Positions 9,043 to 62,275 of a stretch of DNA of 64,000 nt are shown piece after piece (position 1 is the first letter of the stretch; each line of letters starts with the position of its first letter). The position numbers and the translations under genes were made by a program. Origin of the DNA: Corallococcus sp. EGB (GTDB lineage Bacteria; Myxococcota; Myxococcia; Myxococcales; Myxococcaceae). The stretch spans positions 2,046,001-2,110,000 of the forward strand of contig NZ_CP079946.1 in the NCBI RefSeq assembly GCF_019968905.1. The letters are read 5' to 3'. Under the pieces are notes generated by a model. That model was given only the letters and a program-made list of their open reading frames with translations, was not told the origin of the DNA and ran no database searches.

Positions 9043-9211
9043 GGGCGGGGGCGGGCTCAACCGGCGCCGGTGGCTTGGGGGCCCGCTGCTTCCGCTCCGG
9101 GGGTCACCTCGCGGCGCGGCTCCTCGGCTGGCGCTGTAACCTTTCGACCCGCTCCGTCGTGGTGGCCGTTGGACGCCCGGAATGGACCCGGCGCCGGAAC
9201 GGAGGTCGGAC

Positions 9212-10515
9212 ATGCAGGCGATGAAGGTGGCCGTGGTGGGCGGCGGGCTGGGTGGCCTCACGACGGCGGCGTTGCTCGCGCGAGGCGGCTGCGAGGTGAC
9301 GCTGTACGAGCGCTCGAAACACCTGGGCGGGCGGGCGCGGACGACGGAGGTGGCGGGCTTCCGCTTCAACCTGGGCCCGCATGCCCTGTACCGGGCGGGG
9401 GCGGCGCTGCGGGTGCTGGAGCGGCTGGGGGTGAAGCCCACGGGAGGCGTCCCGGCGCAGACGGGGTCCCATGCGCTCGTCGCGGGCCGGCTGCACACGC
9501 TGCCCCGAGGCGCCGTGACGCTGATGACGACGGACGTGCTGTCGCTCGCGGGGAAGCTGGAGGTGGCGAGGGTGCTGGCGGGGCTGGCCCGGATTGACAC
9601 GCAGACCCTGGGGGCGCTGTCGATGCGCGAGTGGTTGGAGACGCGCCTGACGCGAAAGGACAGCCGGGCGCTCATCGCGGCGCTGATCCGCGTGTCCACC
9701 TACTGCGCGGACCTGGAAGTGCTCAGCGCGGGAGCGGCGCTGAAGCAGCTCCAGTTGGCGATCGCCGCGAACGTTCTGTACGTGGACGGAGGTTGGAGCA
9801 CCCTCGTGGACGCGGTGGAGCGCGTGGGGCGCGAGGCCGGTGCGCGGCTCGAGTTGTCCGCGAGGGTGGATGCCGTCGTCCTCCAGGAGGGGAGCGAGCG
9901 GGTCGAAGGCGTGCGGCTCGTGGGCGGCGCGGTGCGGGGGGCGGACGCGGTGGTGTTGGCGGGGAGCCCCGCGGACGTGGCGGCGCTCCTGCCGGGAGAC
10001 GCGGTGCTCGCGCGAGAGGCGCGGGAGGCGGTGCCCGTCCAGGCTGCGACGCTGGAGCTGGGGTTGTCCGCGCTGCCGAGGCCGGAGGCATTGTTCGCGT
10101 TGGGGCTGGACGGGCCCTGGTACGCGTCGGTGCATTCGGCTGCCGCGAAGCTTGCCCCGGGAGGGGGGCGATGGTGCACGTGGCGAAGTACCTGGGTGGG
10201 GCGGACACGGAGGCGAGCGAGTCGGAGCTGGAAGCCGTGATGGAGGTGCTCCAGCCGGGTTGGCGCGCGAAGGTGGTGGCGCGACGCTTCCGTCCCTCGC
10301 TCACCGTCAGCGCTGGACTGCCACGAGCCGCGAACGGGGGACTCTCAGGGCGTCCCTCGGTGGAGGTGCCGCACGTGGACGGGCTGTATCGCGTGGGCGA
10401 CTGGGTGGGCGCGGAGGGGATGCTCGCGGACGCATCCCTGGCGAGCGCCGAGGCCGTGGAGCAAGCCCTGGTGCAGCGCACCGCGACGTCTCAGCGCAGT
10501 GCGGCGGGAGCCTGA
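9212..10515 (+). pseudogene. Phytoene desaturase-like FAD/NAD(P) oxidoreductase, single frameshift
   Basis: The product begins with a Rossmann FAD motif (VAVVGGGLGGLTTAALLARG) and GGRARTTEVAGFRFNLGPHAL, as in carotenoid and squalene desaturases and amine oxidases. The first frame is good to about 10165 (...AAAKLAPGGG). The remainder (AMVHVAKYLGGADTEASE... and the FAD-closing VGDWVGAEGMLADASLAS) is in the frame one base back. The break falls in a run of six G near 10161-10166; one more G would restore a protein of about 434 residues. ATG 9212 has GGAGG upstream. The substrate is unknown. A role in terpenoid desaturation next to the sterol locus is possible but only inferred. Confidence 0.8.
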
Positions 10516-10569
10516 GGCGGATGGGCGTCCAGGCCAGAAACCCCGCCCCGGCGGCGGCGCAGCGCAAAA

Positions 10570-11637
10570 ACCTGGCCGACAGTCGGACAGGTTGGGAGGA
10601 CCGCGAGAGGCCCCCTCGCGCTGTCTCCAGGCGGTGGCAAAACCAGTCGGACCGTCGGACAGGCTGGGAGGACCACGGCATACCCCCTCGCCGCCTCCGG
10701 GCAGTGGCAAAACTGGTCGGACAGTCGGACAGGTTGGGAGGACCGCGACAGACCCCCTCACTGTCTCCGGGCAGTGGCAAAACCGGTCGGACAGTCGGAC
10801 AGGTTGGGAGGATCGCGGCAGGCCCCCTCGCGCTGTCTCCAGGCATCGGAAAATCGGTCGGACGGTCGGACAGGTTGGGAGGACCGCGGCAGGGCCGCGC
10901 TGTCTGCCGGAAGCGGCAAAACCTGTCGGACAGTCGGACAGCTTGAGGGATCCGCGGCAGGCTCCGCGCTGTCTGCCGGAAGCGGCAAAACCTGTAGGAC
11001 AGTCGGACAGGTTGCACGCCCGCAGCTCGAAGCCTTTGTTCCGCCTGGACAGCGGAAGCCTGTCGGACAGTCGGACAGGTTGGGAGAGCCGTGGCCGGAG
11101 CCACCGTCTCCACCCAGGCCGGGGAAACCTGTCGGACAGTCGGACAGGTTGGGAACCGTGGCTGGGGGCCCACGCCCCCGGACATCGGAAACCTGTCGGA
11201 CAGTCGGACTGGCTTGGATGGACCGCAGTTGGGCCTCAGGTCCGCCTGGACAGGGGGGACTTGTCGGACAGCCGGATAGCTGTTGGAGGACCGTGGCACG
11301 GCCTCCCGCCCCAACTGGCCAGTGGAAACCTGTCGGACAGTCGGACAGGTTTGGGAGGACCGTGGCTGGGACTCCTGCACCGGTCGGACAGCGGAAACTT
11401 GTCGGACAGTCGGACAGGTTTGGAAGGACCGTGGCCGAGGGGGCGTGGTGTTGGGACCGGGCTGCGGAAACCTGTCGGACAGTCGGACAGGTTTTGGAGG
11501 GCAGTGGCCGGGAGGGCTCCTTGATGAATCCGAGTGTCGGAGACCGGTCGGACAGTCGGACAGGTTTGGATGGTGCCGGGCGTGGACCCCAGTGCCGACT
11601 CTGGGCCTCGGGAACTTGTCTGACAGTTGGACAGGTT
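10570..11637. repeat. Array of 16 degenerate ~70-bp repeats with a 24-bp conserved core
   Basis: Sixteen copies of a core built from TCGGACAGTCGGACAG with flanking CC/GG arms start at 10570, 10642, 10712, 10782, 10853, 10921, 10990, 11058, 11127, 11191, 11259, 11328, 11397, 11470, 11543 and 11614. Spacing is 64-73 bp (mean 69.6). The core is partly palindromic (CCTGTC...GACAGG; also CTGTC-G-GACAG) and contains a direct duplication of TCGGACAG. Linkers of about 46 bp are related to each other, so this is not a CRISPR array. Copies 1-7 share a GC-rich linker ending in GGCAAAA; copies 8-16 share GACCGTGGC after the core and GGAAAC before it. Copy 11 is the most degenerate. Confidence 0.95.
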
Positions 11638-11751
11638 TTGCCGGACCGGGCGGGGAGGGGGGCCTCCTGGATGTTCGGGAGCCTGGGGTGCCATGGATGA
11701 CCGCGCTCCGCTGGTACTCCTGGATTGTTGGAACCTGAGGACTTGAACGGG

Positions 11752-12711
11752 ATGGATGCACAGGCGCGAGGCGCAGTGGGGCAGGCGGCGCGTGAGCATG
11801 AGCGCTTCCTCTGGGGACTCTGCTACCGGATGACGGGCGTGGCCGCGGACGCGGACGACCTGGTCCAGGAGGTCTTTGCTCGCGCGCTCGCGACTCCGCC
11901 GGAGCGACTGGACTTGCTGCGACCCTGGTTGACCCGCGTGGCCGTGAACCTGGCTCGGGACCACCTGCGTCGGCGGCGCCGTGAAGGCTACGTCGGACCT
12001 TGGCTTCCCTCTCCCGTGGAGACCGGCGACGAGGAGGTCCCACCGTCAGTGGAGGCGAGGCTTCCCGGGGGCGGTTCGACCGAGGGCCGCTACGAGCTGC
12101 TGGAGAGCGTGTCCTTCGCCTTCCTCCTGGCGCTGGAAGCCCTGTCGCCCAAGCAGCGGGCGGTGCTGCTGCTGCGCGATGTCTTTGATTACTCGGTGCT
12201 GGAAGTGGCCGAGGCGCTGCGCATGTCCGAAGCGAACGTGAAGGTGGTGCACCACCGCGCCCGCGCGGTCATGGCCACGTATGACCAGGCACGCTGTGTC
12301 CCCACGCGCGACGTGCAGGCTCGCACACGGGCCGCGCTGGAGGCCTTCCTGGGCGCGCTGGTGATGGGAGACGTGGCCGCCGCGGAGGCTCTGCTGGCCT
12401 CGGATGTGCACGCCCTCTCGGATGGAGGCGGCAAGGTGCGCGCGGCCCAGGTGCCCATCGTGGGCCCACAGCGCGTCATCCTCTTCATTCGCCGGCTGAT
12501 GGAGATGCGGGGCCCGCCAGTGGCGTGGGAGGCACGGATGCTCAATGGCCTGCCCGCCGTGGTGGCGGTCTACCCTCCAGGAGCGGATCCGCTGTTGGCC
12601 TTGAACATGGTGATTCGCGTGGACGTAGACGCGAGCGGACGCATCCATGCGCTGCATTCCGTGCTGGAGGACCGGAAGCTCACCGGGGTGCGCATGCCCG
12701 TGCCGGAATGA
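11752..12711 (+). CDS. ECF41-type RNA polymerase sigma factor with SnoaL-like C-terminus
   Basis: 319 residues. Sigma region 2 (about residues 17-80, DADDLVQEVFARAL) and region 4 (about 120-178, LSPKQRAVLLLRDVFDYSVLEVAEAL) are followed by an NTF2/SnoaL-like domain. Two hallmarks of the ECF41 group are present: a WLPEP-like linker motif (WLPSP, 84-88) and DGGGK (224-228). In that group the C-terminal domain tunes sigma activity in place of an anti-sigma factor. ATG 11752 is preferred over an upstream in-frame start at 11725. The usual carboxymuconolactone-decarboxylase-type partner gene is not adjacent. The upstream region is the 16-copy repeat array. Confidence 0.9.
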   Translation: MDAQARGAVGQAAREHERFLWGLCYRMTGVAADADDLVQEVFARALATPPERLDLLRPWLTRVAVNLARDHLRRRRREGYVGPWLPSPVETGDEEVPPSVEARLPGGGSTEGRYELLESVSFAFLLALEALSPKQRAVLLLRDVFDYSVLEVAEALRMSEANVKVVHHRARAVMATYDQARCVPTRDVQARTRAALEAFLGALVMGDVAAAEALLASDVHALSDGGGKVRAAQVPIVGPQRVILFIRRLMEMRGPPVAWEARMLNGLPAVVAVYPPGADPLLALNMVIRVDVDASGRIHALHSVLEDRKLTGVRMPVPE

Positions 12712-51388: not shown

Positions 51389-52564
51389 ATGGCCCGTCGC
51401 ATCGGTTCGACCCCCTCCCGCTCCTCCACCCTCCCGACCTCCTCGACGTCTCAGCCCAAGCCGCCGGCGCGCGCGTCGACGCTCCCCGCCTCGACGACGG
51501 CCGCGAAGCCCCCGGCGACGATGACCGCGAAGCCCCCGGCGACGACGACCGCGGCGACGACCGCGAAGCCCCCGGCGGCGACCCCCTCCGCGACCACGTC
51601 GACGCCGCCGAAGCACGCGGGTGCTCCCGAGGGCGCGCCCTCGTACACCCCCTGGGAGACGACCACGGGCCAGGGCTCGGACGTGTCGGTGAGCGGCGGT
51701 GACAACAAGCTCAAGGCGCCCCCGGCCGCGAAGCAGACCATGTTCATCGACAAGCCGGCCACGCCCTACCAGAAGGACACCTTCGGCGGTGGCCGGCTGA
51801 GTGCCAACATGGGCTCGGTGCAGGCCTCCACCACGAGCCACAGCGGCGGTGGCGTGCACCACTACTCGGCCCAGGCCGAGGTCCAGGGCCCCAACGCCTC
51901 CTTCGAGATGCAGAAGGCGCACGCGGGCCGGTTGGGCGTGTCGAGCGTGCAGGTCACCGGCGAGGCCAACAGCTTCAAGGCGCAGGCCCAGGCCGGAGTG
52001 TCGGCCGACACGAACTCGCACGCCTACACCGCCGCGCTGACGGCCAAGGTGGAGACGGGCGTGGGCGTCACGGCGAGCGCGAGCCACGACTTCAACCAGC
52101 ACGTGGGCGGCTTCGTGAAGGGCGAGGCGAAGGCCTCCGCCACCGCCTTCGCGGAGGCCGTGGCCACGGTGGACCCGAAGACGGCCACGGCGATGGTCTC
52201 CGGCCAGGTGGGCGCGGGCGCCACGGCGGGCGTGTACGGCACGGCGGGCGGCCACGTGGGCCGCGTGCACGGCTCGGTCACCGCGGGCGCGGTGGCGGGC
52301 GCGTCGGCCCAGGCGGGCGGGAAGTTCGGCATCGAGAACGGCTTCCTCAAGCACTCCGCGGACGTGAACACGGCCGTGGGCGTGGGCACCCACGTGAAGA
52401 CGGACGTGGCGGTGGACCTGCGTCACCACATCAAGCCGGGCATCGCATCGGGCCTGCGCCCCGCGCTCGGCGCCGCGATGGGCGTGCCCGCCCCCGCCAT
52501 CGCCATCGAGCCCGAGAAGTCGAGCGTCCAGAAGCTCATCGCCAAGGCCTTCGGCAAGGAGTGA
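51389..52564 (+). CDS. Low-complexity hypothetical protein with Ala/Gly beta-repeat body
   Basis: 391 residues from ATG 51389. The first ~80 are Thr/Pro/Ala/Lys low complexity with AKPPATTTA-type repeats. The rest is a regular Ala/Gly/Val/Ser/His alternation (AEVQGPNASFEMQKAHAGRL, FVKGEAKASATAFAEAVATV, GVYGTAGGHVGRVHGSVTAG), as in beta-solenoid or amphipathic-sheet proteins. It ends in KKLIAKAFGKE-like basic helix (VQKLIAKAFGKE). No signal peptide and no known catalytic motif. It shares size, position and lack of signal with the gene just upstream, so a common secretion or assembly role is possible. A terminator hairpin follows. Confidence 0.6.
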   Translation: MARRIGSTPSRSSTLPTSSTSQPKPPARASTLPASTTAAKPPATMTAKPPATTTAATTAKPPAATPSATTSTPPKHAGAPEGAPSYTPWETTTGQGSDVSVSGGDNKLKAPPAAKQTMFIDKPATPYQKDTFGGGRLSANMGSVQASTTSHSGGGVHHYSAQAEVQGPNASFEMQKAHAGRLGVSSVQVTGEANSFKAQAQAGVSADTNSHAYTAALTAKVETGVGVTASASHDFNQHVGGFVKGEAKASATAFAEAVATVDPKTATAMVSGQVGAGATAGVYGTAGGHVGRVHGSVTAGAVAGASAQAGGKFGIENGFLKHSADVNTAVGVGTHVKTDVAVDLRHHIKPGIASGLRPALGAAMGVPAPAIAIEPEKSSVQKLIAKAFGKE

Positions 52565-59326: not shown

Positions 59327-62275
59327 TCATCCCCTGACCGGGCAGGTCACGGGCTCGAGGTAGAAGGCCTCCCACGCGCCGGTGTCGGCGGGGTTGCAGA
59401 TGCCCGCGTTGCCGCCATTGCCGCTCTGGATGGGAGCGCCGGGGGTGACCTCCTTCCAGTTGCGCGCGGTGCCTGTCGACGACTCGAAGCCGTAGCGATT
59501 GCGGCCGCCATGGACACCGCAATCGTAGCGGGTGAACGACTCCGCCGTGCTGGGTGAGGCATTCACGGTGAGCTGATCCGCGACCACCGCCAGGTACGCG
59601 CCGTTCGTTCCCCTGAGCTTGTATTTCGCGCCGTGGGTGACGAGCTCGAAGACCTCACCATCGCTCTGCGTCGTGCCGAGCGCGGCCACCTTGTTCGCGC
59701 CATCGACAGTGAGCCACTTGTCGGTGCGCTCGCTCTGGATGCGGAAGCAGCCCGCGCTGCCGCTGGCCTCCGTCTGGCATGTCGCATCGCAACCATCGCC
59801 CGGCTGGGTGTTGCCATCGTCACATTGCTCGCCGCTCTCGACAGTGCCGTTGCCGCACACGGGGCCGGTGCTGTCGCCCGGGCAGGCCACCGGTTCGAGA
59901 TAGAAGGCCTCCCAGGCACCGCCATCGGCCGGATTGCAGGCGCCGCCATTGCCGCCGTCACCGCTCTGGATCGGCTCGCCCGCCGCGGTCTCCTTCCAAT
60001 GGGGCGCGCTGCCCGTGGAGGACTGGAATCCGACGCGAGTGCGCCCGCCGTAACCACAGGCAATCCGGGTGAACGACTCCCCACTGGTGAAATCGGCGCC
60101 CATCGTGAGCTGGTTCGCCACCACCGTCAGGAACGCGTCGCCCGAGCCCTTGAGCTTGTACCGGGTGCCATTCGGAACGAGCTGGAAGACCTGTCCCCCT
60201 GCTTGCGTCGTGCTGCCGGCGACGACCTTGCCCGCGGTGTTGACGGTGAGCCACTTGTCGGTGCGCTCGCTTTGAATCTGATAGCAGCTTCCGCCCGAGG
60301 TCTCGGTGAACAGGGCGGTGTAGGTGGCCGCGCTGCCAGGCGTGATGAAGGTGTGTGATTGCGCGCCGCCGTCCGACCACGACGAGAACGCCCAGAACCT
60401 TCCGTTCGCATACTGCGGCGACTCGACGCCCACGGAGCGGACGACACCGACCACGCCGGTCGTGTCGTGTGGCGCCGCGACCGGTCGCCCGTCCATCAGG
60501 ACCTGCAGTCCGCTCGGCACGCTGGTCACCGTGAGCGGGACCGTGACGGGGTGGACGTCGCGATAGGTCGTATGGGTGAGGCCAATCGAGTCGCGCACCG
60601 TGAGCCGCACGCGATACCAGACGTTGGCCGAGCTCTCGCCGACGCTCGGGATGGGCCAGCTCCCGCTCGCGATGCCGGTGGTGTCGGCCATGGCCGGGTG
60701 CGTGTGGGTGTCGTGGTGGAAGGTGATGTTCCAGGTCATCGCGCTCGGCGGCAGCGTGCCATCCTCCTGGTCGCTGGCCGAGCCGGAGAACGTCAGGTTC
60801 GTGGCCGCGGTGTAGGTCGCGCCCGCGGCCGGAGTCACGATCGTGGCCACGGGGGGCTTGTTGGTCGTCACCGTCAGCACGGCCTCGGTGCTGGTGGTCG
60901 AGCCCAGCCCGTTGGTCACGACCACGCGGAAGCGCGCGCCGCTGTCGGCGAGCTGCGCGGCGCTCAGCTCGTAGCCCGGCGAGGTCGCGCCGGCGATGTC
61001 CACGCCGTTCCGCTGCCACCGGTAGGTGAGCGGCGGCTCGCCACTCGCCGACACCGTGAAGGTCGCCGGATTGCCGACGGACACCAACGTGCTGGCCGGT
61101 TGCTGCGCGATGGTGGGCGGCAGTGAAGCCGTGTAGGCGATGCGACCCACCTGGCCCGCGCCGCGCGCCAGGTAGTAGAGCGCGCCATCGGGCCCGACAT
61201 CGAGGTCCACGGGCCCCGCGGCGGCCGTCGCGAACAGCGAACGCACACCGGTGTTCGGGTCGATGCGCGCGATCCAATTGTTGGTGTAGTCCGCGAAGAA
61301 GTACTGGCCGACGTACGCGCTGGGAAACGCCGTGACCGGCGGATTGTAGAAGGCACCGCCCGCGATGCAGTTGCCGGCGGCCGTGCCAGCGCCGTGCGGG
61401 TACGCGAAGAACGGCTGCGTGAGCTCCGGGCGGTTCGTGAAATAGCCCTCCGTCATCGGCCAGCCGTAGTTGGCGCCGGCCTGGCCGCGGTTGATCTCCT
61501 CCCAGCCGCCTTCGCCCACGTCGTTGATGAACAGGACTCCCGTGCCGGGTTGAACGTCGAAGGTGAAGGGGTTGCGCAGCCCCATCGCCCAGGTCGCCTT
61601 CGCGAGCCCGGTGGCGGTCGCATAGAAGGGGTTGTCCGTGGGGATGCTGCCGTCCGGGTTGAAGCGCAGCAGCTTGCCGAGCGGCGTGTTCAGGCTCTGC
61701 GAGTTGGAGGAGACCGCGTTCTCTCCGACCGAGACATAGAGCTTGCCGTCGAGTCCGAAGCGAACCGCGCCGCCGTTGTGGTTGGCGGCGTCGAGCGTCG
61801 GAAAGTCGGCGAGCACCAGCTCGCTGCCGGGAACCACCACGTTGCCGTTGGCGGTGAAGCGGCTGACCCGGTTGTGGATGCTGCCGGCGACCGACGTGTA
61901 ATAGACGTAGAGATAGTGGTTGCTGTCGAAGTTGGGATCGAACGCGACGCCCATCAGCCCACGCTCGTTGTCGGTGTCCACGGTGAGCGTCATGAACGGG
62001 GTTGCCAGAAGCTGGCCGTTCACGGCGACACGCAGCGAGCCGTTCTTCTCCGAGATGAACAGGCGCCCGTCGGGCGCGAAGGTCATGGTGGTGGGGCCCT
62101 GGAGGCCACTGACAAAGACCGAGTCCGCGAAGTTGGCGTCTTGAACGACGGCGCCCGCTCGCGCGACCCCCAGCTCCGGGGGCGACTCCATCGAGCAGCC
62201 CACAAGGAGGGCGAAGACCGCGCACACGACAAAGAGTGGCAGGGGAGACTCCGCTCGTACATTCGCTCCTGGCAT
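59327..62275 (-). CDS. PQQ-type sugar dehydrogenase with Ig-like and duplicated fascin-like modules
   Basis: 982 residues. Lipoprotein signal FVVCAVFALLVGCS. Residues about 30-385 form a GDH-B/YliI-like six-bladed propeller (GLQGPTTMTFAPDGRLFISE, MGVAFDPNFDSNHYLYVYYT, WAMGLRNPFTFDVQPGTG). Then an Ig-like domain (PATFTVSASGEPPLTYRWQR), a further beta-sandwich (about 475-620), and two copies of a beta-trefoil fascin-like module (CYQIQSERTDKWLTVN... and CFRIQSERTDKWLTVD...). A myxobacterial Cys-rich DUF4215 insert (CGNGTVESGEQCDDGN) lies between the copies. It probably oxidises or binds extracellular sugars or glycans. ATG 62275 has GGGAGAAG upstream. Confidence 0.88.
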   Translation of the reverse strand: MPGANVRAESPLPLFVVCAVFALLVGCSMESPPELGVARAGAVVQDANFADSVFVSGLQGPTTMTFAPDGRLFISEKNGSLRVAVNGQLLATPFMTLTVDTDNERGLMGVAFDPNFDSNHYLYVYYTSVAGSIHNRVSRFTANGNVVVPGSELVLADFPTLDAANHNGGAVRFGLDGKLYVSVGENAVSSNSQSLNTPLGKLLRFNPDGSIPTDNPFYATATGLAKATWAMGLRNPFTFDVQPGTGVLFINDVGEGGWEEINRGQAGANYGWPMTEGYFTNRPELTQPFFAYPHGAGTAAGNCIAGGAFYNPPVTAFPSAYVGQYFFADYTNNWIARIDPNTGVRSLFATAAAGPVDLDVGPDGALYYLARGAGQVGRIAYTASLPPTIAQQPASTLVSVGNPATFTVSASGEPPLTYRWQRNGVDIAGATSPGYELSAAQLADSGARFRVVVTNGLGSTTSTEAVLTVTTNKPPVATIVTPAAGATYTAATNLTFSGSASDQEDGTLPPSAMTWNITFHHDTHTHPAMADTTGIASGSWPIPSVGESSANVWYRVRLTVRDSIGLTHTTYRDVHPVTVPLTVTSVPSGLQVLMDGRPVAAPHDTTGVVGVVRSVGVESPQYANGRFWAFSSWSDGGAQSHTFITPGSAATYTALFTETSGGSCYQIQSERTDKWLTVNTAGKVVAGSTTQAGGQVFQLVPNGTRYKLKGSGDAFLTVVANQLTMGADFTSGESFTRIACGYGGRTRVGFQSSTGSAPHWKETAAGEPIQSGDGGNGGACNPADGGAWEAFYLEPVACPGDSTGPVCGNGTVESGEQCDDGNTQPGDGCDATCQTEASGSAGCFRIQSERTDKWLTVDGANKVAALGTTQSDGEVFELVTHGAKYKLRGTNGAYLAVVADQLTVNASPSTAESFTRYDCGVHGGRNRYGFESSTGTARNWKEVTPGAPIQSGNGGNAGICNPADTGAWEAFYLEPVTCPVRG

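Follow-up and report, generated by a model that had tools for sequence, protein, structure and literature searches.

A dispersed palindromic repeat family of Corallococcus, multiplied into tandem arrays, with a conserved core whose polarity follows replication

The window analyzed here is a 64-kb stretch of DNA, positions 2,046,001-2,110,000 of the complete 9,431,171-bp chromosome of Corallococcus sp. EGB (G000). It contains 16 cores in a single orientation, lying between a FAD-dependent amine-oxidase-like gene and an ECF-type sigma factor gene (Table 1). The stop codon of the former is 54 bp ahead of the first core and the start of the latter is 115 bp past the end of the array. The frame of the FAD oxidoreductase gene is broken near 10160 (window 10130-10200), being one base short of its orthologues (CCCCGGGAGGGGGGCGATGG versus CCCCGGAAGGGGGCGCGATGG), which reflects either a true frameshift or an error in the sequence. 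Elsewhere in the window, at 51492-51594, there are tandem repeats of 24 and 36 bp (CGACGACGACCGCGAAGCCCCCGG).

Table 1. Positions of the array, the arms of the element and the flanking genes in the window.
Feature	Positions	Strand	Remarks
Array of 16 units, 25-bp core AACCTGTCSGAC-A-GTCGGACAGGTT	10569..11637	+	period 64-73 bp
Core centres, first eight	10581, 10653, 10723, 10793, 10864, 10932, 11001, 11069	+	
Core centres, last eight	11138, 11202, 11270, 11339, 11408, 11481, 11554, 11625	+	
Starts of 16-mer TCGGACAGTCGGACAG, first eight	10575, 10647, 10717, 10787, 10858, 10926, 10995, 11063	+	
Starts of 16-mer TCGGACAGTCGGACAG, last eight	11132, 11196, 11264, 11333, 11402, 11475, 11548, 11619	+	
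Left arm of element, core-proximal part	10539..10568	+	left-arm sequence model R1 matches 10539-10583, E=2.1e-4
Right arm of element	11638..11667	+	alignment with other right arms; sequence inspection
Inverted-repeat-like end CAGGCTCCCGAACATCCA	11668..11685	-	scores 14/16 against end consensus CAGGCCCNCGGACATNCA
Upstream neighbour, FAD-dependent amine-oxidase-like gene	9182..10515	+	Pfam PF01593, ORFs, orthologue comparison; host gene outside element
Downstream neighbour, ECF-type sigma factor gene	11752..12711	+	Pfam Sigma70_r2, Sigma70_r4_2; host gene outside element

A preliminary description of the window had reported 16 units with regularly spaced starts, and this was confirmed both by TRF and by a search for the 16-mer with up to 3 mismatches, which gave 24 matches in the window against a mean of 1.27 in shuffled sequences. 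The matches beyond 16 are the palindrome read on the reverse strand and a single 3-mismatch match at 61798. Except for this last one, the core is absent from the rest of the window, as had been claimed, and many copies lie in other parts of the genome. The proposed 24-bp core with a dyad holds as to the palindrome, whose conserved length is 25 bp, the central A being unpaired. The linkers are indeed far more variable than the core, with a mean identity of 0.53 (0.63 between adjacent linkers, 0.25 for shuffled linkers) against 0.93 for core positions -7 to +7 among the units, and some decayed cores are present within the array. Judged by these identities, the linkers are diverged homologous repeats, unlike CRISPR spacers, and a CRISPR array was ruled out.

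It is strongly supported that the window array belongs to a dispersed palindromic Corallococcus family, of which it is one multiplied copy. The cores of the host chromosome number at least 261 and form 56 clusters, from singletons up to 18 units; 261 is a lower bound, since clusters were retrieved by exact 16-mer matches and the left-arm model added a few places, the element occupying about 60 loci in all. Cluster periods are near 38, 50, 57-60 and 70 bp. The preliminary description implied an array special to its locus, which is wrong: there are about 56 such clusters, and at this place several close relatives carry only 0-4 units. The search of myxobacterial genomes which that description proposed found the core in 19 of 145 genomes of the order, namely all 16 Corallococcus and 3 of the 129 others, the latter with low copy numbers (1, 3 and 12 exact copies). 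Corallococcus carmarthensis and C. exercitus gave matches to a longer version of the core. Many loci are common to the three complete chromosomes compared (G000, G003 and G013), and the variation of unit numbers between chromosomes through tandem gain and loss is likewise strongly supported. The exact core was not found in viral contigs, and a phage origin was rejected on this ground; among the papers searched, there was no account of such a repeat in myxobacteria. Outside clusters, the core word seemed strongly avoided when compared with shuffled words, but this effect disappeared against Markov expectations and was discarded.

The complete element has about 155 bp, a length given by a tandem of entire elements repeating every 153 bp (L154:3720-4380, G003) and by a 157-bp copy common to two loci of a genome from another genus (G082). 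It comprises the 25-bp near-palindrome within longer, unlike arms that have inverted-repeat-like ends. The conserved block from -7 to +7 is GTC-S-GAC-A-GTC-G-GAC; the usual form of singletons (S=C) is a perfect palindrome about the central A, and arrays often have S=G, generating a direct repeat of TCGGACAG. The left arm includes GGATGAGAAGGTGAGAACCC and CCCCGTCGGCGGCGCACCGC, the right arm includes GTTTTGGAGGACCGCGGCC, and the two arms have similar, inverted ends, CAGGCCCNCGGACATNCA, at about -95 and -60 relative to the core. This end consensus is found in many clusters, with single matches frequently weak and positions consistent. In the window, 60 bp separate the last core centre from the right end, a placement shared with other clusters, and the left end is less clear. 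Halves of the window linkers resemble the arms of the element, and the arrays are its centre multiplied in tandem. Clusters of a second group, which have a period of 50 bp and were analyzed to a lesser depth, carry different arms.

The two 157-bp copies in G082 have 98.7% identity and indicate mobility. Four loci of this genome (L085, L087, L090 and L095) carry recent copies of a related element, two of them sharing the 157 bp and the remaining two sharing 94 and 77 bp with that pair. Full-length left-arm matches in the host chromosome are nearly all at family clusters, where no coding partner was seen. At empty sites the species compared are highly diverged, and no target duplication was found there. 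The element resembles a MITE in being small, non-coding and mainly intergenic, with inverted terminal sequences and dispersal by copying; the likeness rests on size, ends, placement and dispersal, and the conservation of the core in place sets it apart.

Other families of short repeats share some of these features. REP/BIME elements are also short palindromes clustered after genes, but the Corallococcus family lacks conserved pairing as well as the Y1/RAYT transposase (PF01797 in 0 of 16 Corallococcus genomes, with positive control genomes), and a REP/BIME origin with RAYT was ruled out. Pneumococcal BOX elements are built of modules, two at the ends and a variable number in the centre; the Corallococcus element has, by description rather than sequence, the same kind of build with variable central units, but its left arm shows no RNA fold. 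The Rickettsia palindromic elements (RPE) are palindromic, of about 150 bp, limited to one genus and present at many loci, with possible in-frame insertions in proteins (PMC10969869). The similarity to RPE considered here is one of size, palindromy, genus limit and an in-frame case in an NRPS gene, and the Corallococcus element differs in being mostly intergenic, with the centre multiplied into arrays, an invariant core and a polarity linked to replication. In that NRPS case (L039:9521-10420, G000, 4.36 Mb), a 13-unit array with a 57/60-bp period lies in frame within the adenylation domain, just ahead of the motif YTSGSTG, with the translated repeat PVGQSDRF... A single core in L044 has a flank on one side closely resembling that of the NRPS array.

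According to gene calls from a simple codon-usage script, clusters are mostly intergenic and largely just downstream of stop codons, with median distances of 91 bp to gene ends and 189 bp to gene starts. Convergent gene pairs hold 34% of the clusters against 19.5% in the background, a moderate enrichment, and divergent pairs hold 10% against 19% expected. Cluster density declines from origin to terminus, with 42, 36, 30, 22 and 17 oriented clusters per genome tenth (G000, G003 and G013).

Next to the window array, the ECF gene is present in all 16 Corallococcus genomes, half of which (8/16) have no unit beside it. Comparing the array across strains, we found 0 to 13 units in the relatives: against 16 in the host, the others that carry units have 13, 10, 7, 4, at least 3, 2 and 2, and in several unit-free genomes the FAD and ECF genes almost abut. 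The proximity of the array to the ECF start could suggest a local operator for this sigma gene. We consider this very improbable, since relatives retain the gene with 0-4 units or with nearly abutting neighbours, and the identical core follows dozens of unrelated genes. At two further loci, the element occurs within one species group, in 8 and 9 of its members, and is missing from all the other species. From the presence/absence pattern at these three loci, from which the order of events is deduced, we infer that the family spread in an ancestor of that species group, with unit numbers probably shifting afterwards. Partial duplications of the gene junction, free of cores, were seen in the intergenic region beside the ECF gene in L113 (G009) and L110 (G002), and they are perhaps traces of past rearrangement.

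At the same two further loci, located through flanking proteins and not via the core, all 14 core positions (-7 to +7, centre excluded) are invariant across 8 and 9 species, whereas the flanks have only 6 and 2 invariant columns out of 56, respectively, and pairwise identities of 0.40-0.59. These are the only two loci of this test; the G003 and G013 regions were taken by exact core match, which would bias an estimate of conservation drawn solely from those pairs. The pattern supports selection acting on the core, in situ across species. Of the two causes first proposed for the uniform cores, selection thus seems to hold, and conversion between loci is unlikely given the short and unlike flanks. 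In the preliminary description, cores scattered singly without conservation would have meant an ordinary intergenic repeat; they proved to be scattered, yet conserved.

An RNA hairpin, acting as a bidirectional terminator or as a stabilizer of 3' ends, would fit the location after stop codons, the surplus of convergent pairs and the GTTTT often found directly after the palindrome. However, no base-pair covariation was found in the core, where arm pairs agree no more than independence predicts, so that the sequence rather than the pairing is kept. Besides, about one third of the units have a G-G mismatch at -4/+4, no consensus fold was found in the left arm, no Rfam family matches the array, and the exact core sequence is kept beyond the needs of a stem. 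The hairpin, also raised in the preliminary description, is therefore an unlikely explanation.

With the replication origin placed by dnaA, the central A is far more common than T on the leading strand, with cluster counts of 24:7 against 6:16 in G000, 29:11 against 6:20 in G003, and 10:2 against 1:15 in G013. Since the three chromosomes share loci and are not independent, we grouped the loci by orthology. Polarity agrees with replication at 76 of 98 grouped loci and disagrees at 22 (p=4e-8, somewhat optimistic, as loci of a single chromosome may include undetected orthologues). The agreement is 55:10 in the origin half of the chromosomes; close to the origin the ratio is 36:6, and it drops to 9:8 around the terminus. 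Cores with perfect arms, differing only in the central base, keep the bias (71:23 versus 19:55, three chromosomes pooled). Left-arm orientation is unbiased (21:14 versus 13:7), which makes polarity a property of the core and not of the insertion direction; in the left-arm subset alone, core polarity is weak (p about 0.02). Among 12 orthologous pairs with a single core, three have cores in opposite orientations, involving two sets, with the central base as the only core change. Gene orientation was rejected as a cause, since polarity persists within same-strand pairs and within convergent pairs, and so was the A/T composition of the leading strand, with a skew of about -0.01.

A polarity that is strongest towards the origin recalls polar chromosome signals of the KOPS or Chi type, although we give this explanation hardly any chance. 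The octamers TCGGACAG and TCCGACAG have no leading-strand excess outside the cores (68:93 and 100:118), and about 56 clusters are all there is. FtsK sites are expected to become denser away from the origin, and cluster density does the reverse.

The invariance of the core against its diverged flanks and a polarity that follows replication argue that the core is not an idle repeat. A purely selfish MITE family, with the core kept for mobilization, young or homogenized copies and arrays made by replication slippage, would account for the inverted-repeat-like ends, the dispersal, the presence/absence at the window locus and the close G082 copies, and intergenic sites are usual for MITEs (PMC10969869). 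We find it rather doubtful, because 8-9 species keep an unaltered core where the flanks fell to 40-59% identity, their shortness and dissimilarity disfavour homogenization between loci, and a neutral element is not expected to yield a replication-linked polarity independent of arm orientation.

We suggest instead, as the probable reading, that a MITE-like element seeded sites for a putative dimeric DNA-binding protein. The existence of the family and its dispersal are direct results, as are the polarity and the variation of the arrays; protein binding is proposed from the conservation and symmetry of the core. The dimeric regulator first imagined for the array would fit this motif, judging from its sequence. 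A sequence-specific protein, probably dimeric, would read the two adjacent GTC-N-GAC palindromes and bind the cores as double-stranded DNA, which would be the reason why the sites persist, and arrays would offer it multiple docking sites. Helical phasing of the core spacings was uninformative. GTC-N-GAC matches the operator consensus of FadR-subfamily GntR regulators, NyGTM-N0-1-KACNy (PMC4494728). This is a resemblance of motif, and the core differs in having two copies 8 bp apart, scattered mostly after genes; the FadR class is a lead to a possible binder and not a finding.

Under this proposal of seeded protein sites, the polarity could be due to selection acting on the encounter of the bound protein with the replication fork or to replication-linked mutation at the palindrome centre, and the data fit both. 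A tentative extension, less likely than not, is that these form a dedicated set of polar sites, which a mobile element distributed and the chromosome has since kept, where the putative bound protein meets the fork in a direction-dependent manner that keeps the centre compatible with it. Since the flips are single-base and traceable at orthologous loci, the central base set against replication direction would allow selection and replication-linked mutation in palindromes to be told apart cleanly. If the core is a used site, it would exemplify a mobile repeat converted into protein sites all over the chromosome, with a copy number that changes fast between species.
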